Shown piece after piece: positions 8,372 to 45,010 of a stretch of DNA of 64,000 nucleotides. The notes beneath the pieces were generated by a model. That model searched no databases. It was not told where the DNA came from and saw only the letters and a list, made by a program, of their open reading frames with translations. The stretch spans positions 197,435 to 261,434 of the forward strand of contig JAJEAN010000007.1 of assembly GCA_022822725.1 (NCBI GenBank), in the 5' to 3' direction. This DNA is from Candidatus Latescibacterota bacterium (GTDB taxonomy: Bacteria; JAAXHH01). Numbering within the stretch: the stretch's first letter is position 1; each line of letters begins with the position of its first letter. A program made the position numbers and the translations under genes.

Positions 8372-9718
8372 TCAACTCAGGGAACTTAAGGATTCAACGA
8401 AGTCCGTATCCGCCTGCCCGGAACGGAAGGTCGGGTGCTTCAACATGAACCGGTGGAACGGTATCGTCGTGCTGATGCCTTCGACGACGAACTCCTCCAG
8501 GGCCCGTTCGGTCCGCGTCAGCGCCTCCTCCCGGTCTCTTCCCCAGACGATGAGCTTCGCCAGCATGGAGTCGTAGAAGGGCGTGACGACGTACTGCGCG
8601 TACACGTGGCTGTCTACACGGACCCCGTATCCGCCCGGCGTATGAAAACTCGTGATCTCGCCCGTGGAGGGCATGAAGTTCCGGTCCGGGTCCTCGGCGT
8701 TGATCCGGCATTCGATGGCGTGTCCCCGCATCTGCACGTCTTCCTGCGCGAAACCCAGGGGACTTCCCGCGGCGACGCGGATCTGTTCCTTCACGAGGTC
8801 CTGCGAAACAACCATTTCCGTCACGGGGTGTTCCACCTGGATGCGCGTGTTCATCTCCATGAAATAGAACTGGCGGTCCTCGGTCACGAGGAACTCGACG
8901 GTGCCCGCGTTTTCGTAGTCGATCGCCCGCGCCGCGCGCAGGGCGGCCCCTCCCAGTTGAGCACGGAGTTCGTCGTCGACGAAAGGGGACGGCGACTCTT
9001 CGATGAGCTTCTGCCGGCGCCGCTGGATCGAACAGTCCCGCTCGCCGAGGTGGACGACCTGGCCGTGCCGGTCGCCCAGGACCTGCACCTCGATATGCCG
9101 GGCCTTTTCAATATATCTTTCCAGGTAGAGCGCGGGGTTGTTGAAGGCGTTCTGGGCCTCGCGGGAAGCCAGGCGGAAGGCTTCGCGCAACCCGTCTGCG
9201 TCGCGGACGATGCGGATACCCCGCCCGCCTCCTCCGGCGGAGGCCTTTATCACCAGGGGAAACCCGATCTCGTGGGAAACCTCGACCGCGGCGTCCTCGT
9301 CGTCGACGACGTCTTCCGTGCCCGGTATGGTGGGTACGTCGGACGCCGCTACCGTCTTGCGCGCTTCGGCCTTGTCGCCCATCAGGCGGATGGCCCTGGA
9401 CGGCGGTCCGATGAAGGCGATGTCGCAGGATTCGCAGACTTCGGCGAAGTGGGGGTTTTCGGACAGGAACCCGTATCCGGGATGCACGGCGTCGGCGTTC
9501 ATGATTTCAGCCGCGCTGATGATGTGGGGGATGTTCAGGTAGCTGTCGTTGGGCGAGTTGCTGCCGATGCAGACCGCCTCGTCGGCGAAGCGGACGTGGA
9601 GGGAGTCACGGTCCGTCTCGGAGTGGACGGCCAGCGTCGCGATATTCAACTCTTTGCACGAGCGGATGACGCGCAGGGCGATCTCGCCGCGGTTGGCGAT
9701 GAGGATCTTCTGAAACAT
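8372..9718 (-). CDS. accC: Acetyl-CoA carboxylase biotin carboxylase subunit
   Basis: 448 aa, the standard AccC size. It carboxylates the biotin on AccB using ATP and bicarbonate, the first half-reaction of malonyl-CoA synthesis. Clear landmarks are [15 protein letters not shown] at the N-terminus, the glycine-rich ATP-grasp loop [12 protein letters not shown], the catalytic [16 protein letters not shown] stretch and [13 protein letters not shown]. It begins 6 nt after accB ends, in the usual accB-accC order. The carboxyltransferase genes accA and accD are not in the window. Confidence 0.97.
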
Positions 9719-9724
9719 CGCTGC

Positions 9725-10192
9725 CTATGCCGGTTCGATCAGAAACAACGGTTGGCCGAACTCCACGGGCTGGGCGTCTTCCACCAGGATGGCCATCACG
9801 CGCCCGTTCAGCTCGGACTGGATGGGGTTCATCAGCTTCATGGCTTCGATGATGCACAGCTGCTGGCCGGTGCTGATCCGGTCCTGCTCCTGAACGAAGG
9901 GCTCGGCGTCGGGCTCGGGTGACCGGTAGAAGGTGCCCACCATGGGCGAGGTCACCTCGACGTAGGTGCTGTCCGCGGAATCTGCCCGGGTGTCGTCCTG
10001 CTGCACGTGTTCCGCAGGCGGCGCGGTGGTTTGAAGGTGCGGATCCGCCGCAGGCACAGGGATGGCGGACGCGGTCGCGCCGGGTGTCATGCGCACGATC
10101 CGGATCCTCCGATCGCCCTCGGCCACCTCGACTTCCTGGATGTCCGTATCCTGCAGCGATTCGATCAGCTTGAGCACCTCATCGATTCCCAT
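9725..10192 (-). CDS. accB: Acetyl-CoA carboxylase biotin carboxyl carrier protein
   Basis: 155 aa. The biotinylated lysine is K119 in the canonical EAMKLMN motif of a C-terminal biotinyl domain. A Pro/Ala-rich linker separates it from an N-terminal helical segment (MGIDEVLKLIESLQ). It accepts carboxylated biotin from AccC. It starts 23 nt after the efp stop codon, so efp, accB and accC are probably cotranscribed. The matching biotin ligase gene (birA) is about 21 kb away in this window. Confidence 0.96.
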   Translation of the reverse strand: MGIDEVLKLIESLQDTDIQEVEVAEGDRRIRIVRMTPGATASAIPVPAADPHLQTTAPPAEHVQQDDTRADSADSTYVEVTSPMVGTFYRSPEPDAEPFVQEQDRISTGQQLCIIEAMKLMNPIQSELNGRVMAILVEDAQPVEFGQPLFLIEPA

Positions 10193-10214
10193 GTCAGGCT
10201 CCTCGGAAGGGCGA

Positions 10215-10772
10215 TTACACCCGCTCTACGTATTCGCGGGACCGCGTATCGATGCGCAACACGTCGCCGGGGTTGATGAACAGCGGGACCTGTACCACGG
10301 CGCCGCTTTCGAGCGTGGCCGGCTTGGTGCCGCCCGTCGCCGTATCTCCGCGGATACCCGGATCGGTCTGCGTCACTTCCAGCTCGATGAAATTCGGCAT
10401 TTCGATGCCCACGACGCCCTGGTCCGCGGTCAGCAGCTCGAGCGTCATGCTGTCCTTGATGTAGTCATTGTTGTCGCCGATGATCGACGCGCCTACCGGC
10501 ACCTGTTCGTAGGTCTCCAGGTCCATCATGTAGTACATGTCGCCGTCGGTGTACTGGAACTGGGCCTTGCGGCGTTCCACCCGCACGTCTTCCAGCTTGT
10601 CTGAGGCTTTGTAGGTCTTCTCGATCACGGCCCCGGTGTGGATATGCTTCAGGCGGGTGCGCGAGAAGGCCGTTCCCTTGCCCGGCTTGATGTGTTCGCA
10701 ACCCGTGATGAAGTAAATGGATCCGTCGATCCTTATGGTCATACCGGTGCGCAGGTCCGTAGCGTTCACCAT
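10215..10772 (-). CDS. efp: Translation elongation factor P
   Basis: 185 aa from the ATG at 10772 (MVNATDLRTGMTI), the normal EF-P length. The frame is open further upstream through the tRNA gene, but that part is not coding. EF-P rescues ribosomes stalled at polyproline. The loop CEHIKPGKGTAF carries the lysine (K32) that corresponds to the modified lysine of E. coli EF-P, and the C-terminal TDPGIRGDTATGGTKPATLESG block is typical. The gene lies about 120 nt downstream of tRNA-His and just upstream of accB. Confidence 0.96.
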   Translation of the reverse strand: MVNATDLRTGMTIRIDGSIYFITGCEHIKPGKGTAFSRTRLKHIHTGAVIEKTYKASDKLEDVRVERRKAQFQYTDGDMYYMMDLETYEQVPVGASIIGDNNDYIKDSMTLELLTADQGVVGIEMPNFIELEVTQTDPGIRGDTATGGTKPATLESGAVVQVPLFINPGDVLRIDTRSREYVERV

Positions 10773-10827
10773 AAGATCCGGCTGGTCTCCTTTGTCTGCT
10801 TCATCGGCCGTTACGCGGCAACGGGTT

Positions 10828-10846
10828 CTAAAGCCGGAACTCCGGC
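10828..10846 (-). terminator. Weak hairpin between tRNA-His and efp
   Basis: A GCCGGA/TCCGGC inverted repeat (10833-10846) is followed on the minus strand by TTTAG. The loop is very short and the T tract is poor, so this is at most a partial terminator or a processing signal downstream of the tRNA. Confidence 0.3.
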
Positions 10847-10893
10847 GCGCCGTGGACCCGGTCGGGTCGGGAAGAAAGCGTCCTGATTTAAAG

Positions 10894-10968
10894 GGTGGGC
10901 AACGGGATTCGAACCCGCGACCTCCAGAGCCACAGTCTAGCGCTCTAACCAACTGAGCTATGCCCACC
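10894..10968 (-). tRNA. tRNA-His (GTG anticodon)
   Basis: The minus strand folds into a full cloverleaf: acceptor GTGGGCA/TGCCCAC, D arm GCTC/GAGC, anticodon stem CTAGA/TCTGG with loop CTGTGGC giving GUG, and T arm GCGGG/CCCGT with TTCGAAT. The nucleotide before the acceptor (10968) reads G and the discriminator (10894) reads C, matching the G-1:C73 pair that marks tRNA-His. CCA is not encoded. Confidence 0.97.
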
Positions 10969-34330: not shown

Positions 34331-35875
34331 CTACGCAATTTCCGCGCCGGCCTGGTCGCCCGCGCCGGCCTGGTCGCCCGTGCCGGCCTGGTCGCCCGCG
34401 CCGGCCGGGCCATGGGCGGCATCGCCGTAAAGTAGCTTCCGGGCTTGTTCCCTGGTCCGAATATCATGTTTAGTCTGGATCGATTCAAGCTTAACCAACA
34501 GGCGGCCGATCTCAGGTCCCTCGGCCAGGCCCAAGTCGTCCATGATGTCCTCACCGTTCAATACCAGGCCCTCTGCCCGTAGGGTACGGTACCGGGTGTA
34601 AAGCCGCAGGAGCCGTCGTGCGGCCTTCGCGATCCTTCCTCCCGCCCCTTTCGCCTCGTTGTCCTCGTCCGGCGCATGCGCCAGGGCAAGGAGTGCCGCG
34701 CCAGGGGTATCGTCTTTCGACCCGCGCAGAATCCGGCAGAGCGCTTCGTCGTCCAGTTCCCGCGAAACGGCCCCTTCGAGCAGTCTCGCGGCCCCGAACA
34801 CCAACTGGTGGAGCGCTTGCCTTTCCCGCTTGCTCAGTCTGAGCCGGTCGGCCGCGCCTTCGACCAGGTCAAGGGCTGTGTTTTCGGCCGCACCGCCGGC
34901 CGTACCGCTTGACGCACCGCCGGCCGCGCCTTCGACCAGGTCAAGGTCCGGGTCTATGCCGACGTTCCGGATGACGCACACCAACAGGCTGGCGAACCGG
35001 AGGATCCACAGGTTGGACCGGTCGCCCGCCATTTTGGTTTTGAATCCGGTCAGATGGGCGTAAAGCCCCTGGTCCTCCTGGAAAACATCCCTTTCGATGA
35101 GCCGGTCCGTCCGCTCCAGACACCGAAACAGCGATGTGGTCGGCGATGTGGACGGCGATGTGGACGGTGTTTCCATCCACCCGGGAAAGAGCGACCCGAA
35201 CACGCCGGAGCGGAACATGGCGGACACCTGGTCCGCGGCGCGGCGCCTGCCCATGATCAAGGACAGTTCGTAAAGAATGCGTTCTCCGGAAACCTCTCGA
35301 AGGTCTTCGTCGCATGACGCGATCCACGCCTCGGTACGGGGCGTGATGTCAAGGCTGAACTGGCCGGCTAGCCGGAACGCCCTGAGTACCCGCAGCGGGT
35401 CGTCGCGAAAGGACGTCTCGGAAACGGCCTTGAGCCGCCTGGCAGCGAGGTCGGCCGCGCCGCCAAGGGGATCGATGACAGACGGCCTGCCGTCCAGTAC
35501 GTCCGACAGGCGGACGGCCATGGCGTTGATGGTGAAATCCCGCTTGCGGAGGTCCGCCTCCAGTGAATCGCCTTTGAAGGAAGATATATCGATGGTAAAC
35601 CGTCGCCGCAACACGACGCGCCCGGTCCGGTCCGTGTCGTCAAGCGGTACGAAGGGACACCGCAGGCGGTCCGCCAGTTTCCGTCCCAGCGCAAGTCCGT
35701 CCGCCGCGAGCGTAAGGTCCAGGTCCCGTACCGTGCGGCCCAGGATGGCATCCCGCACGGAACCGCCCACGAGATAGACTTCGTGGTTCACTTCCCGGCA
35801 CAGATCGGCCAGATCGGAAGCCAGTCGCCTATGGGCCTTCAACAGGGGCTGAACAGGATCGACAAGGGCTGACAT
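34331..35875 (-). CDS. CCA tRNA nucleotidyltransferase / poly(A) polymerase family protein
   Basis: 514 aa from the ATG at 35875. The class II nucleotidyltransferase head is clear: VYLVGGSVRDAILGR, DLDLTLAA (metal-binding DxD) and RKRDFTINAMAV, followed by DPLGGAADLAARRLKAV and DDPLRVLRAFRLAGQ. The family adds or repairs the tRNA 3' CCA, or only A or CC; this cannot be told apart here. The C-terminal half carries unusual low-complexity insertions: a Ser/Thr-Pro stretch near residue 250, an Ala/Gly-rich segment near 345-370 with DLVEGAA twice, and a repeat-encoded GDQAGAGDQAG tail. Confidence 0.82.
   Translation of the reverse strand: MSALVDPVQPLLKAHRRLASDLADLCREVNHEVYLVGGSVRDAILGRTVRDLDLTLAADGLALGRKLADRLRCPFVPLDDTDRTGRVVLRRRFTIDISSFKGDSLEADLRKRDFTINAMAVRLSDVLDGRPSVIDPLGGAADLAARRLKAVSETSFRDDPLRVLRAFRLAGQFSLDITPRTEAWIASCDEDLREVSGERILYELSLIMGRRRAADQVSAMFRSGVFGSLFPGWMETPSTSPSTSPTTSLFRCLERTDRLIERDVFQEDQGLYAHLTGFKTKMAGDRSNLWILRFASLLVCVIRNVGIDPDLDLVEGAAGGASSGTAGGAAENTALDLVEGAADRLRLSKRERQALHQLVFGAARLLEGAVSRELDDEALCRILRGSKDDTPGAALLALAHAPDEDNEAKGAGGRIAKAARRLLRLYTRYRTLRAEGLVLNGEDIMDDLGLAEGPEIGRLLVKLESIQTKHDIRTREQARKLLYGDAAHGPAGAGDQAGTGDQAGAGDQAGAEIA
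34344..34406 (-). repeat. 18-bp tandem repeat at the 3' end of the cca-like gene
   Basis: About 3.5 copies of an 18-bp unit containing GCCTGGTCGCCCG (34344-34361, 34362-34379, 34380-34397, partial to 34406). In the coding frame they give repeated GDQAGA peptides just before the stop codon. Confidence 0.9.
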
Positions 35876-36124: not shown

Positions 36125-36910
36125 ATGCAGTTATACCCCGCCATCGACATCAGACAGGGGCGATGCGTCCGGCTCGTCAAGGGCAGGCGCGATCACGAAA
36201 CAGTGTACGGGGATTCCCCGGCCGAGGTCGCGTCGAGATGGAAATCGCAGGGCGCAACCTATCTGCACGTCGTCGACCTGGACGGCGCATTCACCGGCGA
36301 AGCGGGCAACCGGAACAGTGTCGTCGGCATACTGGAACAGGCCGATATGCCGGTGCAACTGGGCGGAGGCATCCGTACGCCGGAGGCCGTGGAGGCCTGG
36401 CTGGCCCTGGGGGTGAGCCGCGTCATCCTGGGCACGGCGGCCGTGGAACGTCCCGACATGGTGCGACAGGTGGTGGAGGCGTGGGGGCCGGAGCGCATCG
36501 TCGTCGGCATAGACGCCAGGGCGGGACGGGTCGCCGTTAACGGCTGGACGTCCGGCGTGTCCTGTTCATCGCTCGAACTGGCGGAGGAAATGAGGGAAGC
36601 CGGAGTCTGCAGGATCGTCTACACGGACATCGACCGGGACGGTACGATGAACGGACTGAATACCGGTTCGACGGCGCGCCTGGCACGGGAAAGCGGAATG
36701 CGGGTGATCGCGTCGGGAGGCGTGGCCACGCTGGACGACCTCGAACGGGCCTCCGCAGCGGTCGCGGACGGCCTGGAAGGGGTAGTGCTCGGGAAGTCCC
36801 TGTACGAAGGAACGATCGATCTGTCGGAAGCCGTACGCAAATACCAGTCTGCCCCGGACGCCCGGGAGCCTGGAGAGGAACCATGCCGGAAAACACCGTC
36901 GAAGTCCTGA
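36125..36910 (+). CDS. hisA: HisA: phosphoribosylformimino-AICAR phosphate isomerase
   Basis: 261 aa beta/alpha barrel of histidine synthesis. The two catalytic aspartates lie in YPAIDIRQGRCVRL (D8) and IVYTDIDRDGTM (about D170 here); QLGGGIRTPEAVEAWL and ASGGVATLDDL form the phosphate sites. No other his gene is nearby, and hisF, the usual partner, is replaced by an unrelated gene whose start overlaps the hisA end by 28 nt. The C-terminal 15 residues are beyond the normal fold and coincide with that overlap. GGAGG lies about 13 nt upstream of the ATG. Confidence 0.93.
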   Translation: MQLYPAIDIRQGRCVRLVKGRRDHETVYGDSPAEVASRWKSQGATYLHVVDLDGAFTGEAGNRNSVVGILEQADMPVQLGGGIRTPEAVEAWLALGVSRVILGTAAVERPDMVRQVVEAWGPERIVVGIDARAGRVAVNGWTSGVSCSSLELAEEMREAGVCRIVYTDIDRDGTMNGLNTGSTARLARESGMRVIASGGVATLDDLERASAAVADGLEGVVLGKSLYEGTIDLSEAVRKYQSAPDAREPGEEPCRKTPSKS

Positions 36911-38529
36911 TGATCGAAGACAACCCCGTGCACGTGCAGCTGATTCGCCACTACATGGAATCCAGCCGGCTTACGACCCGGCTTCACGTCGCCGGGACGC
37001 TCCGGGAAGGGCTGGACCTGATCGGGGAGGCGTCCTTCGACGTGGTGCTGCTGGACCTCGTCCTGCCCGACAGCGCCGACCTCGACACGCTCCACAGCGT
37101 GCGTTCGGCCGCGCCGGATCTGCCGGTCATCATCCTTACCGGGCTCGACGACGTTTCCCTGGCCGCCACCGCCGTGGAAGCGGGCGCCCAGGACTACATC
37201 GTCAAGACCCAGGTCGACACGAACCTGCTATCTCGGTCCATCCATTATGCCATCGAGCGCGTGCGCGCGCGCACCGGCGAGTGGGATTCGGCCATGTTCA
37301 AACTGGCCCAGCAGCAGTTTCTCAAGGCGGCGCAGATCATGGGGCTCGACGCGAACATCCGGGAACGGCTGCTCTTTCCCCAGCGGACACATATCGTGAC
37401 GCTCCCCTTCCGCCGGGACGAATACAACCTCGTGGAAAATGTCTTCGGTTACCGGGTGCAGCACCTGCTCACCATGGGACCGACCAAGGGCGGCATCCGC
37501 TACCACGAGGACGTGAACCTGGGTGAAGTTTCCGCCCTGGCCATGTGGATGACCTGGAAATGTGCGCTGATCAACCTGCCCTTCGGCGGCGCCAAGGGCG
37601 GCGTCCGGATCGACCCGACCGACCTGTCCCGGCGCGAACTGCAGCGCCTCACCCGCCGCTTCACGTCGGAAATCATCGATATCATCGGGCCGGACAAGGA
37701 CATCCCGGCCCCCGACATGGGCACCGATGAGCAGGTCATGGCCTGGATCATGGACACGTACAGCCAGCAGGCGGGCTACACGGTGCCGGGCGTCGTCACC
37801 GGCAAACCGGTCGTGCTGGGCGGGTCCCTGGGGCGCCGCGAAGCCACCGGCCGGGGCCTGGTCTACCTGATCGAGGAAGCCGCGAAGCACATGGGCATGT
37901 CCCTGGACGGCGCAGCGGCGGTGGTCCAGGGCTTCGGCAACGTGGGCAGCAACACGGCGCGTTTTCTGGATGAGGACGGTGTCAGGATAGTCGCGGTAAG
38001 CGACGTCACCACCGGGATCTACAACGCCAACGGACTGTCGCTGGAGGACGTCTTCAGGTACTGCGAGGAAAACCGTTTCCTTTCGGGCTATCCCGAGGCC
38101 GACGAAGTGACCAACCAGGAACTGCTCGAGCTGCCCTGCGACATCCTCGCCCCGGCCGCGCTTCAGAACCAGATCACCGGCGACAACGCGGACCGGCTTC
38201 AGTGCAGGCTGCTCGCGGAAGGGGCCAATGGTCCCACCACGCTCGATGCCGACGAGATCCTCGGGGACAAGGACGTATTCATCCTTCCGGACGTGCTGGG
38301 CAACGCCGGCGGCGTGACCGTCTCCTACTTCGAATGGGTGCAGGATACGCAGAACTACACCTGGACGCTCGAGGAGATCAACAGCAGGCTGCACAACATC
38401 CTCATCGACGCCTTCGGCAGGACCGTCCGCCGGTCTTCCGAAGACAAGATCGACATGCGCACCGCGGCGTTGATCGAGGGGATCAGCCGGGTGACCCAGG
38501 CGAAACTGCTCCGTGGGATCTTTCCCTGA
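36883..38529 (+). CDS. Response-regulator receiver domain fused to glutamate dehydrogenase
   Basis: 548 aa, one open frame with two complete domains. Residues 1-125 form a CheY-like receiver: acidic pair E12/D13 (MIEDN), phosphoacceptor D58 (VVLLDLVLPDS), T86 (IILTG), Y105 and K108 (DYIVK). After a helical linker, residues about 138-548 are an NAD-type glutamate dehydrogenase: K202 (GPTKGGIRYHED), K226 (MTWKCAL), K238 (PFGGAKGG), D278 (PAPDMGTD), Rossmann GFGNVGSNTA and glutamate-contact S481 (GGVTVSYFEWVQ). All residues needed for phosphorylation and for catalysis are kept. GGAGAGGA precedes the ATG. An internal ATG at 37294 could give a free enzyme. The next gene is a hybrid kinase with HPt, 34 nt away. 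The obvious inference is phosphorylation-controlled glutamate deamination. Confidence 0.92.
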   Translation: MPENTVEVLMIEDNPVHVQLIRHYMESSRLTTRLHVAGTLREGLDLIGEASFDVVLLDLVLPDSADLDTLHSVRSAAPDLPVIILTGLDDVSLAATAVEAGAQDYIVKTQVDTNLLSRSIHYAIERVRARTGEWDSAMFKLAQQQFLKAAQIMGLDANIRERLLFPQRTHIVTLPFRRDEYNLVENVFGYRVQHLLTMGPTKGGIRYHEDVNLGEVSALAMWMTWKCALINLPFGGAKGGVRIDPTDLSRRELQRLTRRFTSEIIDIIGPDKDIPAPDMGTDEQVMAWIMDTYSQQAGYTVPGVVTGKPVVLGGSLGRREATGRGLVYLIEEAAKHMGMSLDGAAAVVQGFGNVGSNTARFLDEDGVRIVAVSDVTTGIYNANGLSLEDVFRYCEENRFLSGYPEADEVTNQELLELPCDILAPAALQNQITGDNADRLQCRLLAEGANGPTTLDADEILGDKDVFILPDVLGNAGGVTVSYFEWVQDTQNYTWTLEEINSRLHNILIDAFGRTVRRSSEDKIDMRTAALIEGISRVTQAKLLRGIFP

Positions 38530-38563: not shown

Positions 38564-41500
38564 ATGGCTTCATCGGAAAACGACGCGGCTTCAACGGAAA
38601 ACGACGCGGCATCAAAAGAATCCGGCGCGGCTACGTCGGAGATCGGTTCGGATTCACCGGGAATCGATGCGGATTCACCGGGAATCGATGCGGATTCGAC
38701 GGAAATCGACGTGGCCTGGGTGCGGTTGCTTCAGAAAGCCGCCTACCTGTGCAGCGTGGTCGTCATCGCGTGCTCGGTGCTCGTGCTCGCCGGCTGGCAG
38801 TTCGATCTCTCTGTCCTGAGGGGCCTGATCAACCCCGGGCGGGTCCCCATGAATCCGCTCACGGCCGCCGCCTTTCTGCTGGCCGGCGGCACGTTGTGCG
38901 CCTTGCTGCCGCGGAACGCTTCGGCCTTCCGCAGGTGGACGGGATTCGCCGGCGCGGCGCTGCTCATGGCGCTGGGGGCCGCAAAGCTCCTCGACCTCGA
39001 CCTGGGCGGCCGGGGGATCGACCAGTGGCTTTTCGCCGAGTTCCTGAGCGGCAACCGCATGGCCCCGCACACCGCCTTTACCTTTATGCTCGTGGGCCTG
39101 GCGCTCCTGCTCCTCGATCTACGCGGCCCGAGACACTGGTTGTCCCACGTCTGCGTCATGAACGCCGGGATCATCGCCCTGCTTTCGCTGGCCGGGGCGA
39201 TTTACAGTACCCTGGTGCTGTACCGGGTTTCCGGCGCTATCCCCATCACCCTGAACACCGCCCTGGGTTTCGGCGTCCTGTGTGCGGGCATCTTCTGCGC
39301 GCGGCCCCGGCGCGAACCGGCCGCCACGCTGGTCAGCGCCACGGCCGGCGGCCTCATGGCCCGCCGCCTGCTCCCCGCGGCCTTCCTCATCCCCATCGTC
39401 CTCGGATGGGTGCAGTTCCAGGGGGAAAGAGCGGGTTTGTACGGGGTGGAATTCGGCCATTCGCTCTTCGTGGTCTGCAACGTGATCGCCTTCAATATCC
39501 TGATCTGGTGGAACGCCCGCTGGATCGGGCAGATCGATGCGGAACGCACGCGAATCGCCCATGAACTGCACCGGCAGAACGCCTTGCTGGAGACAACGAC
39601 CCACGACATGGTGCTTTTCCAGGGGGAACTCCAGGAAGCCAAGGAGTCGGCCGAGGAGGCCAGCAGGGCCAAAAGCGAGTTCCTCGCCAACATGAGCCAC
39701 GAGATCCGCACGCCGATCAACGGGATCACCGGCATGACCCAGCTCATGCTGCATACCGACCTCACCTCACGGCAGCGGGAGTTCATGCGGCTCATCGACC
39801 AGTCCACGGAATCTTTACAGGGCCTGTTGAACGATATCCTGGACTTCTCGAAGATCGAGGCGGGCCGCCTGGAACTCGAATCGATCCCCTTCGAACTGCG
39901 AGAGCGCATCGCCAATACCGTGCAGGCCATGTCGATCCCCGCTACGGAAAAGGGTCTCGAGCTGGCCTACCGGGTAGCTCCCGACGTGCCGGACCTGCTG
40001 ATGGGCGACCCGGGCAGGTTGAGCCAGATCGTGATAAACCTGCTCGGAAACGCGATCAAATTCACGGAATCGGGAGACGTGGTCCTTTCCATGTCGATGG
40101 CCTCGGAATCGATGGACACCGTGACGCTGGCCTGCTCGGTAGCCGACACCGGCATCGGCATACCGGAAGACAAGCAGCAGCTGATTTTCGACGTCTTCAG
40201 CCAGGCGGACAGTTCCATGTCGCGTAAGTACGGCGGCACGGGCCTGGGACTGGCCATCTGCGCGCAGTTGACCGCCATGATGAACGGCCGCATCCGGGTC
40301 GAAAGCGAAGAAGGCCGGGGAAGCACCTTCCACTTCACCGTCGAAATGCAGAAAAGGCCCTCCGCGGCAGTCAAGCCGGCCGTGGACGCCGGGCCGTTGT
40401 CCGGCCTGAGGGTACTCGTGGTCGACGACCATCCCACCAACCGGGGGTTCCTGGTCGACATGCTGACCGAATGGTCCATGCGGACGACGGAAGCCGGCAC
40501 CGGCGTGGAAGCCCTCGCCGCCCTTACCGGCGATGGCGGTGAGGCCATCCGGCTGGTCCTGCTGGACGAAACCATGCCGGAAATGGAAGAACACGGGCTC
40601 ATCCGGGAAATCAACCGGTGCGCCGAAGGGCGAAACCTCGACGTCATCCTGCTGGTATCCGCCGGACAGCGGGACGACCTCGAGTACGGCAAGTCCTTCG
40701 GAATCGCCTGTACGGTCACCAGGCCGGTCAGGCAGTCCGATCTGCTGAACGCCATCATGGAAACGGTGGCCGGCGCGAGCGCTCCCGCGTTGGAAGAGGG
40801 CGCCGATGGCTTGTCCGAAGGGGTGGCGCCACGGCGCATCCTCCTGGCCGAGGACGGCGCCGTGAACCAGCGCGTCGCGGTGCTCATGCTGGAGTCCAGG
40901 GGCCACGAAGTCACCGTGGCAGGAAACGGCCGGGAAGCCGTCGAGCGGTTCGAGTCCGGCGCGTTCGACCTGATCCTCATGGATGTGCAGATGCCCGAGA
41001 TGGATGGACTGGAGGCCACGCGGACCATACGCGGCCGGGAAACGGGCGGCGATCATATCCCCATCATCGCCATGACGGCCCACGCCATGCGCGGCGACCG
41101 TGAGCGGTGCCTGGCTGCCGGGATGGACGATTACCTGTCCAAGCCCATCCAGGCCCCGTTGCTGTACGCGGCGGTGGAAGGCGTCATGGCCGGTGCGCGG
41201 GAGGATGTACCGCCAAGATCGGACTCGGCGGTCGCGGCCGATGGACCCGAAACGACGGATACGGCACATGCGGCCGGCAGTCCACCGGCTGAACCGGATA
41301 CGACGCCATCAGACTTATCGACGGCCGCCGCGCCGGTCGATTGGGAAAAGGCCGTTGCACAGGTGGGCGGGGACGAGGCCGTGATCGCCGATCTGGCTGG
41401 ACTCTTCCTGGCCGAGTGCCCGGGGCTCGAAACCGGCATACGCGCGGCGGTCGATGCGGGGAACGCCGCCGACCTGAGACGGCATGCCCATACGTTGAAG

Positions 41501-41692
41501 GGCTCAGCCGGGGTTTTCAGGGCCGAGGCCGCCGTCGAAGCCGCCCAGCGCCTGGAAAAGATGGGCAGGGAAGGCGACCTGGATGGTGCGGAAGAGGCCG
41601 TTTCCGCGCTCGCCCACGAACTGGACCGGTTGAAGCCGGTCCTCGCGGAACGCGTCGCCGAAGCGAAACCGCAGGCCGGGAGGGGAAAATGA
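38564..41692 (+). CDS. Membrane hybrid histidine kinase with two receivers and HPt
   Basis: 1042 aa. A repeat-encoded acidic N-tail (1-50) precedes about eight membrane segments (55-315). These contain a thrice-repeated motif (MNPLTAAAFLL, MAPHTAFTFML, ITLNTALGFGV) suggesting internal triplication. Then come a coiled coil (325-370), the HisKA H379 in SHEIRTPING, HATPase N496, DTGIGIP and GGTGLGL. Receiver 1 (615-735) has D621/D622, D668 and S699 but Arg720 replaces the conserved Lys, so it may be weakened. Receiver 2 (757-875) is complete (D807, T838, K860). The C-terminal HPt has H976 in HTLKGSAG. No extracytoplasmic sensor domain is present. The stop overlaps the next start (ATGA). A likely phosphodonor for the neighbouring receiver-dehydrogenase. 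Confidence 0.92.
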   Translation: MASSENDAASTENDAASKESGAATSEIGSDSPGIDADSPGIDADSTEIDVAWVRLLQKAAYLCSVVVIACSVLVLAGWQFDLSVLRGLINPGRVPMNPLTAAAFLLAGGTLCALLPRNASAFRRWTGFAGAALLMALGAAKLLDLDLGGRGIDQWLFAEFLSGNRMAPHTAFTFMLVGLALLLLDLRGPRHWLSHVCVMNAGIIALLSLAGAIYSTLVLYRVSGAIPITLNTALGFGVLCAGIFCARPRREPAATLVSATAGGLMARRLLPAAFLIPIVLGWVQFQGERAGLYGVEFGHSLFVVCNVIAFNILIWWNARWIGQIDAERTRIAHELHRQNALLETTTHDMVLFQGELQEAKESAEEASRAKSEFLANMSHEIRTPINGITGMTQLMLHTDLTSRQREFMRLIDQSTESLQGLLNDILDFSKIEAGRLELESIPFELRERIANTVQAMSIPATEKGLELAYRVAPDVPDLLMGDPGRLSQIVINLLGNAIKFTESGDVVLSMSMASESMDTVTLACSVADTGIGIPEDKQQLIFDVFSQADSSMSRKYGGTGLGLAICAQLTAMMNGRIRVESEEGRGSTFHFTVEMQKRPSAAVKPAVDAGPLSGLRVLVVDDHPTNRGFLVDMLTEWSMRTTEAGTGVEALAALTGDGGEAIRLVLLDETMPEMEEHGLIREINRCAEGRNLDVILLVSAGQRDDLEYGKSFGIACTVTRPVRQSDLLNAIMETVAGASAPALEEGADGLSEGVAPRRILLAEDGAVNQRVAVLMLESRGHEVTVAGNGREAVERFESGAFDLILMDVQMPEMDGLEATRTIRGRETGGDHIPIIAMTAHAMRGDRERCLAAGMDDYLSKPIQAPLLYAAVEGVMAGAREDVPPRSDSAVAADGPETTDTAHAAGSPPAEPDTTPSDLSTAAAPVDWEKAVAQVGGDEAVIADLAGLFLAECPGLETGIRAAVDAGNAADLRRHAHTLKGSAGVFRAEAAVEAAQRLEKMGREGDLDGAEEAVSALAHELDRLKPVLAERVAEAKPQAGRGK
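38567..38710 (+). repeat. 21-bp repeats encoding the acidic kinase N-tail
   Basis: Imperfect 21-bp units encode S(T)ENDAAS-like and SPGIDAD heptapeptides; the unit TCACCGGGAATCGATGCGGA occurs twice exactly (around 38656-38696). The repeats sit wholly inside the start of the kinase gene. Confidence 0.85.
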
Positions 41693-44647: not shown

Positions 44648-44676
44648 AGTCTAAAACCATCCCGGCATACTGTCAA
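44648..44676 (-). promoter_or_regulatory. Potassium channel promoter
   Basis: On the minus strand TTGACA (complement of 44671-44676) is 17 bp from TAGACT (complement of 44648-44653). A leader of about 75 nt follows before the ATG at 44564. Confidence 0.6.
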
Positions 44677-44686
44677 GCCAACACGG

Positions 44687-44866
44687 GAATCCCGTGGCCG
44701 AAAAGTAGAATCCCGTGGCCGAAATGTCGAATCCCGGTCCAGTCACCGGCCGAAATGTCGAATCCCGGCCGGTTCCGGCCGAGCCGCGTTCCAGTTCCCG
44801 CCCCCGAGCCCGCCCCCGCCCCCGCCCCCGCCCCCGCCCCCGCCCCCGCCCCCGCCCCCGTCCCCG
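44687..44866 (+). repeat. Composite repeat: GAATCCCG units and a CCCCCG microsatellite
   Basis: The 410-bp gap between the channel and dipeptidase genes (44601-45010) is mostly repeats. At 44687-44770, four GAATCCCG-headed units carry GGCCGAAATGTC-type sequence. At about 44800-44866 there are roughly nine CCCCCG hexamers; the minus strand is a run of G5 tracts able to form a G-quadruplex. 44867-45010 holds no clear promoter that I can name. Confidence 0.9.
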
Positions 44867-45010
44867 AGTTTTTCTCCTTGCTCCTCTGCACGCCGTTCCT
44901 GTAACCTGCCAGATGCACGCGGCCCTGCGGTCGCGGGCGGCCAGTTCCCGTCGCGGGCGACCGAAGGCCGGTACTCATCTCACCATCCACAACGAACGGA
45001 TTCGCAGACC

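Follow-up and report, generated by a model that had tools for sequence, protein, structure and literature searches.

Background

Response regulators with an enzymatic output, such as those of the CheB, PleD and RpfG types, act in signalling or chemotaxis, and two-component systems in general are mostly regarded as circuits that control transcription or second messengers. The glutamate dehydrogenases (GDHs) of Thermotoga maritima, Thermus (GdhB) and Bacillus subtilis (GudB-RocG) are chains without a receiver, and we know of no phosphorelay control of these enzymes. A receiver-like fold is present on the inducible lysine, arginine and ornithine decarboxylases, in the form of a wing domain that is not known to carry the phosphorylation site.

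In 2009 the P2CS compilation marked EC 1.4.1.3, glutamate dehydrogenase, as 'Probable' for proteins that carry two-component domains, in a table that also includes the inducible decarboxylases (PMC2716373). In section 5 of that paper the entry is a single line of a curation table, with no sequence, taxon, mechanism or test beside it. Passages of PMC12421884, PMC7326016, PMC9570180, PMC12918730 and PMC10194956 do not name GDH among two-component enzymes. Apart from PMC2716373, we found no description of a receiver-GDH fusion in open PMC text, though reviews of output domains may mention it earlier. The sequence-only reading of the locus described here knew the architecture from no characterised system; this stands in that open PMC text yielded no characterisation, but the P2CS line had already placed a GDH among the probable cases. 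As far as these searches reach, the receiver-GDH is a response regulator of the enzymatic kind whose output lies in central metabolism, and it is uncharacterised in open PMC text.

The fusion gene

The gene occupies positions 36883 to 38529 on the forward strand of the window, by which we mean the whole stretch of 64,000 nucleotides that was analysed. One open frame of 548 amino acids contains a receiver domain (residues 8-116, 36904-37230; Pfam PF00072 Response_reg, E 2e-18), followed by ELFV_dehydrog_N (residues 166-294, 37378-37764; PF02812, E 3.3e-52) and the coenzyme-binding ELFV_dehydrog domain (residues 313-545, 37819-38517; PF00208, E 6.4e-77, with a fold match). A receiver and a complete GDH in one frame is what the sequence-only reading had described, and its assignment of individual residues was also correct: E12, D13, D58, T86 and K108 in the receiver, K202, K226, K238 and D278 in ELFV_dehydrog_N, and S481 further on. 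The first five supply the acidic pair, acceptor Asp, Thr and Lys expected of a phosphorylatable receiver, the codon of the predicted phospho-acceptor D58 being at 37054-37056. The remainder of the chain has both ELFV domains, the GDH fold and the catalytic Lys and Asp residues of the hexameric GDH class.

Like CheB, PleD and RpfG, the fusion consists of an N-terminal phosphorylatable receiver and an enzyme, but the enzyme is a central-metabolism dehydrogenase instead of one serving signalling or chemotaxis. With the GDHs of Thermotoga, Thermus and Bacillus it shares the enzyme half, catalytic residues and fold (52% identity over 410 columns with 1b26), whereas those chains lack its receiver. 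It is also related to the NCBIfam equivalogs GdhB_Halo and GdhA_Arch, though it scores under the cut-offs of both (493.2 against 620 bits and 478.7 against 750, respectively). The wing-domain decarboxylases resemble it in having a receiver-like N-terminal fold on an amino-acid enzyme; their wing is not known to carry a phosphorylation site, whereas D58 and K108 are retained in all 49 fusions compared below, and a Pfam scan of the window fusion found no PLP decarboxylase domain. In the window genome (97.8% complete) the fusion gene is the sole match to its own enzyme half, which is the sense in which we call it the only GDH of this genome or genus; six other matches concern the receiver alone.

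Upstream, a hisA-like gene (36125-36910, forward strand; identified from the ORF list and Pfam) overlaps the start of the fusion by 28 nt. The good ribosome site noticed earlier is present as GGAGAGGA at 36872-36879 on the forward strand. An internal ATG (M138, forward strand, 37294-37296) had been named as a possible origin of a free dehydrogenase. With no Shine-Dalgarno (SD) motif ahead of it in the window, M138 was judged not to be a start here, and a free enzyme is disfavoured for this locus. Of 42 homologues, 32 carry an SD-like motif at the start of the fusion, and of 40, 8 carry one ahead of M138. Five of these eight (L136, L138, L139, L186 and L189) have the motif ahead of M138 and none at the start, which points the opposite way and appears to speak against dismissing M138 in those cases. 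M138 occurs in several receiver-less relatives too.

A stop or frameshift between the domains in related genomes would have undone the fusion. No stop was seen within any of the listed genome-search matches covering receiver and enzyme, which rules out an assembly artefact or an interdomain stop. The list of 49 fusions is open by construction, because it was defined by both domains in one open frame.

Elsewhere in the window, the ORF list shows a short amino-acid repeat, GAGDQA, at the end of one frame (34331-34430) and simple repeats of the GAGAGAG/PAPAPA kind at 44673-44990.

Conservation and structure of the fusion family

The family comparison covers 49 distinct fusions from several phyla, that is, the window fusion and 48 more; four that are cut by contig ends (L157, L158, L187 and L188) were kept in the residue counts. 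Alignments A1 and A2 hold 43 and 40 of these rows, and the later finds L239 and L241-L243 lie outside the set. Besides the unchanging D58 and K108, E12/D13 is found in 48 of the 49 (the remaining row being truncated at the edge of its contig), and residue 86 is T in 42 and S in 7. By these residues the receiver of the family is predicted to be of the working type. On the enzyme side K226 is present in 49/49, K238 and D278 each in 48/49 and K202 in 47/49.

The connection between the two halves is equally constrained. Residues 103-145 are free of gaps across all 49 rows, so that the linker has a fixed length, and L116, R118 and E133 are invariant in 43 fusion rows. Within the window genus dN/dS amounts to 0.141 for the receiver, 0.051 for linker residues 119-137 and 0.059 for the enzyme, values taken from 55 non-independent pairs among 11 sequences and, for the linker, from a short segment. 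These ratios indicate purifying selection on receiver, linker and enzyme alike.

A single-chain AlphaFold2 model of the fusion reached a pLDDT of 91.9 and a pTM of 0.79. It was computed from 111 rows; an earlier input of 43 fusion rows gave a pLDDT of 75.9 and a poor enzyme half. In the model the last receiver helix (113-132) is followed by a short turn and then by the first enzyme helix (137-153); helix and linker up to residue 137 correspond to 37219-37293 on the forward strand. The enzyme half (residues 134-548) superimposes on T. profundus GDH 8xcr with Z 62.4 and an rmsd of 1.3 over 412 residues. The second strand of the coenzyme domain ends with D374, which is the same in all of 43 fusion rows. 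An Asp at this place as a rule goes with NAD rather than NADP, which suggests the same preference here, and the fusion enzyme is probably NAD-dependent.

The adjacent hybrid kinase

Directly after the fusion, as the earlier reading had remarked, follows a hybrid histidine kinase with an HPt domain. Its gene (38564-41692, forward strand, 1042 aa) begins 34 nt past the fusion stop and has the Pfam order HisKA-HATPase-REC-REC-HPt, with HisKA at 39668-39865 and HPt, the putative phospho-donor to D58, at 41393-41635 on the same strand. This adjacency is conserved. Of the 49 fusions and 123 receiver-less proteins, 43 and 108 have at least 1 kb of sequence on both sides and are counted as testable. 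A same-strand hybrid kinase lies within 300 nt at 33 of the 43 fusion loci (30 downstream of the fusion, 3 upstream) against 0 of the 108 receiver-less relatives. On either strand the counts are 34/43 and 1/108. Fusion loci mostly have longer flanks than the controls, and the count was therefore repeated at equal flank limits: where each flank measures at least 4 kb, linkage is seen for 28 of 37 fusions and none of 43 receiver-less loci. The loci are not independent, 10 of the 43 being from the window genus, and the Fisher p-values assume that they are; outside this genus 23 of 33 fusion loci are linked. One protein (L021, from G004) was classed as receiver-less because it is cut at residue 215; it has a kinase beside it and was left out of the 108 as untestable.

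A same-strand adjacent kinase is absent at ten fusion loci (L232, L040, L044, L045, L046, L049, L214, L217, L218 and L219), several of them planctomycete. L044 has just 1147 nt of downstream sequence and L046 has a kinase on the opposite strand. At the three plasmid loci that were read (Sinorhizobium/Ensifer), the kinase is downstream in each. One neighbouring kinase, that of S. fredii NXT3 (L243:9796-12643), is annotated as two overlapping genes, a PAS part and a kinase part, and may for that reason be broken.

The kinases are alike in their transmitter and differ in their input. Nine of ten that were scanned show HisKA-HATPase-REC-REC-HPt (L222 is without HPt), whereas the input part is variously PAS, GAF, CHASE, dCache-HAMP, YfiR-like or without a Pfam match. 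Over 21 of the 24 kinase loci (L046, L204 and L221 omitted), the distances of the kinase core correlate with those of the receiver at a Mantel r of 0.84, which exceeds the 0.75 between receiver and enzyme, although these are parts of one chain. Kinase core and enzyme correlate as well (r 0.72), so that the co-divergence may partly reflect shared descent. Taken together, the conserved transmitter, linkage, co-divergence and varied inputs suggest that transmitter and receiver-enzyme stay together and that it is the sensor which is replaced. Judged by gene linkage, the adjacent kinase is likely the cognate kinase of the receiver-GDH.

Two features of the window kinase may be added. According to its translation the first receiver has VTRP in place of the conserved Lys (TKP) and may consequently be a pseudo-receiver, while the second appears intact. 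Furthermore, the N-terminal region (38684-39643) is a hydrophobic stretch of about 320 amino acids without a Pfam match. A similar region is present in the kinases of L199, L203-L208, L211 and L213 (36-93% identity), and no significant match was obtained in the remaining kinases of the compared set; it is a candidate for an undescribed sensor domain.

Distribution and origin

In the window's phylum the full-length fusion is present in 14 of 16 genomes; of the other two, G004 has it cut by a contig end and G014 has a receiver-less GDH only. Outside this phylum its distribution is patchy. The phylum of G040 (a MAG labelled Gemmatimonadota) has it in 9 of 64 genomes, that of G042 (Rhodopirellula) in 8 of 343, an overlapping sample taken around G041 in 5 of 246 and the phylum of G051 (Lujinxingia) in 11 of 235. 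For the order to which G045 (Halomonas) belongs the count is 2 of 293, and the phylum sample of that genome has the same two among 398. All these counts concern sampled genomes, with mostly three to six candidates scored per genome. Among named relatives the nearest is a Gemmatimonadetes MAG (L037, 96%). Named holders include Rhodopirellula sp. JC639, Aestuariicella hydrocarbonica and Lujinxingia vulgaris, as well as Zobellella maritima and Halomonas stenophila, where the kinase again adjoins the fusion.

Among plasmids, nine records match over at least 80% of the query. Eight of them are listed, seven from Sinorhizobium fredii (NGR234 included, where fusion and kinase are on pNGR234b) and one from Ensifer adhaerens; three of these were examined, and their fusions come on top of the 49. 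Two plasmid records annotate the product as 'Glu/Leu/Phe/Val dehydrogenase dimerization domain-containing protein'. On the Ensifer adhaerens plasmid (L242:1-7275) the fusion is near genes for methylaspartate mutase, methylaspartate ammonia-lyase, CoA-ester metabolism and fumarate hydratase, a predicted methylaspartate-pathway neighbourhood that fits glutamate breakdown. A tblastn search with the Ensifer proteins against the other loci longer than 9 kb and the window found no second methylaspartate cluster, the only matches being to CoA-transferase in L066 and L106 and to fumarase in L110.

Three close relatives of the fusions, L047, L048 and L050, have no receiver. Together with the fusions they form one side of a branch with an SH-aLRT of 99, and the neighbours of this branch are GDHs without a receiver, from G051's phylum among others. 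Quick trees require three receiver changes, and in a 57-row tree (L143, L187, L188 and L189 excluded) the starred branches alone force two. A single clade of all fusions is nevertheless not rejected (p-AU 0.5), so that the three relatives may be either receiver losses or pre-fusion branches. One origin of the fusion is compatible with the trees. A larger tree contains 110 of 147 selected proteins, after removal of near-copies from the window's own genus and of 30 near relatives, most of them GDHs from Nitrospira and planctomycetes. Here L143 and L189 meet as long branches, a pairing we do not rely on. No relic of a receiver was detected at seven receiver-less loci (tblastn, E up to 0.01; four with about 1.5 kb of flank). 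One receiver-less GDH (L051:5346-9932, forward strand) is part of a 1529-aa frame ending in an AhpC-TSA/redoxin domain, which would reflect an unusual fusion or else an overlooked stop.

Proposed mechanism and alternatives

We consider it probable that the fusion belongs to a two-component phosphorelay in which the activity of glutamate dehydrogenase is itself the output. The adjacent hybrid kinase would sense a signal, and phosphate would pass by way of the kinase's receiver and HPt domains to D58 of the fusion. The resulting change at the last receiver helix would be transmitted by the fixed-length helical linker to the first enzyme helix and would alter the balance between open and closed subunits and hence the rate at which glutamate and 2-oxoglutarate are interconverted. 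In Arabidopsis GDH1, according to PMC7326016, the N-terminal helix is part of the domain that forms the hexamer and changes its bend as the enzyme opens and closes; the N-terminal region lies exposed at the surface. The fusion enzyme would be hexameric, and a receiver held at fixed distance and phase by the N-terminal helix could tune its opening and closing. The direct phosphorylation switch put forward in the sequence-only reading hence gains comparative support and, in the kinase next door, a likely partner; that there is such a switch, which way it acts and what it does to flux is what we infer from this comparison.

The dehydrogenase as output agrees with the retention of K202 in nearly all fusions, but it probably does not apply to every member. 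Three divergent fusions have lost catalytic residues and kept the receiver: L143 (K202L, K238M, A276M and N449D; receiver complete), L189 (K202L and D278G; receiver complete) and L239:6990-8654 (forward strand), a second fusion of G808 with F, Q and F at K202, K226 and K238 and an intact receiver. All three genomes hold other GDH genes, and G808 also has an intact fusion. A kinase adjoins L189 and L239, its frame in the latter (8621-10909, forward strand) overlapping the end of the damaged fusion. Damaged sites, intact receivers and the other GDHs together make a role as regulatory subunit or scaffold possible. There is a precedent in Thermus, where the GDH hetero-hexamer includes a catalytically inactive regulatory subunit (PMC9570180); by that analogy a dead subunit could regulate a live one.

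Two readings build on these members. One takes the receiver-GDHs as phosphorelay-driven subunits of GDH hexamers, catalytic in most lineages, with some dead ones that would still receive the phosphoryl signal and serve as kinase-controlled regulatory subunits or metabolite sensors, so that a single sensor kinase would set the glutamate/2-oxoglutarate balance through mixed hexamers; for the family as a whole we regard this as rather unlikely. The other takes the enzyme half as a hexamer frame, with receiver-bearing subunits tuning other dehydrogenase subunits or a partner and their own catalysis dispensable. This we hold to be distinctly unlikely: the damaged fusions, the kinases beside two of them and the Thermus precedent speak for it, but L143 has no adjacent kinase, and most fusions keep their catalytic residues. 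In the window genus (the window genome and ten congeners) the fusion, with catalytic residues kept, is moreover the only match of its GDH type, so that there would be no other such subunit to regulate.

Signals might also flow in reverse, the enzyme half sensing glutamate, 2-oxoglutarate or NADH and altering the receiver, which would then drain or feed the phosphate of the kinase. The anatomy is the same as for the phosphorelay with GDH output, and the coenzyme-site residues G350, G352 and D374 persist in L143 and L189 in spite of their damaged catalytic sites. As a rule, however, response regulators act downstream, and no other output gene appears consistently linked, the non-kinase neighbours varying in length and strand between groups; we therefore give this direction little credence. 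That the receiver is a passenger, on a constitutive enzyme or one made free from M138, is hardly credible given the full conservation of D58 and K108, the purifying selection that acts on both receiver and linker, the linked kinase and the missing SD motif ahead of M138 in the window, even though L047, L048 and L050 imply that the enzyme can do without a receiver and five homologues have the motif ahead of M138 only.

Implications

If GDH activity is indeed the output of the phosphorelay, the fusion would connect sensed signals with central metabolism directly and at the post-translational level, at an enzyme of the carbon-nitrogen branch point. A sensed signal would then probably turn a central enzyme of nitrogen metabolism up or down directly.
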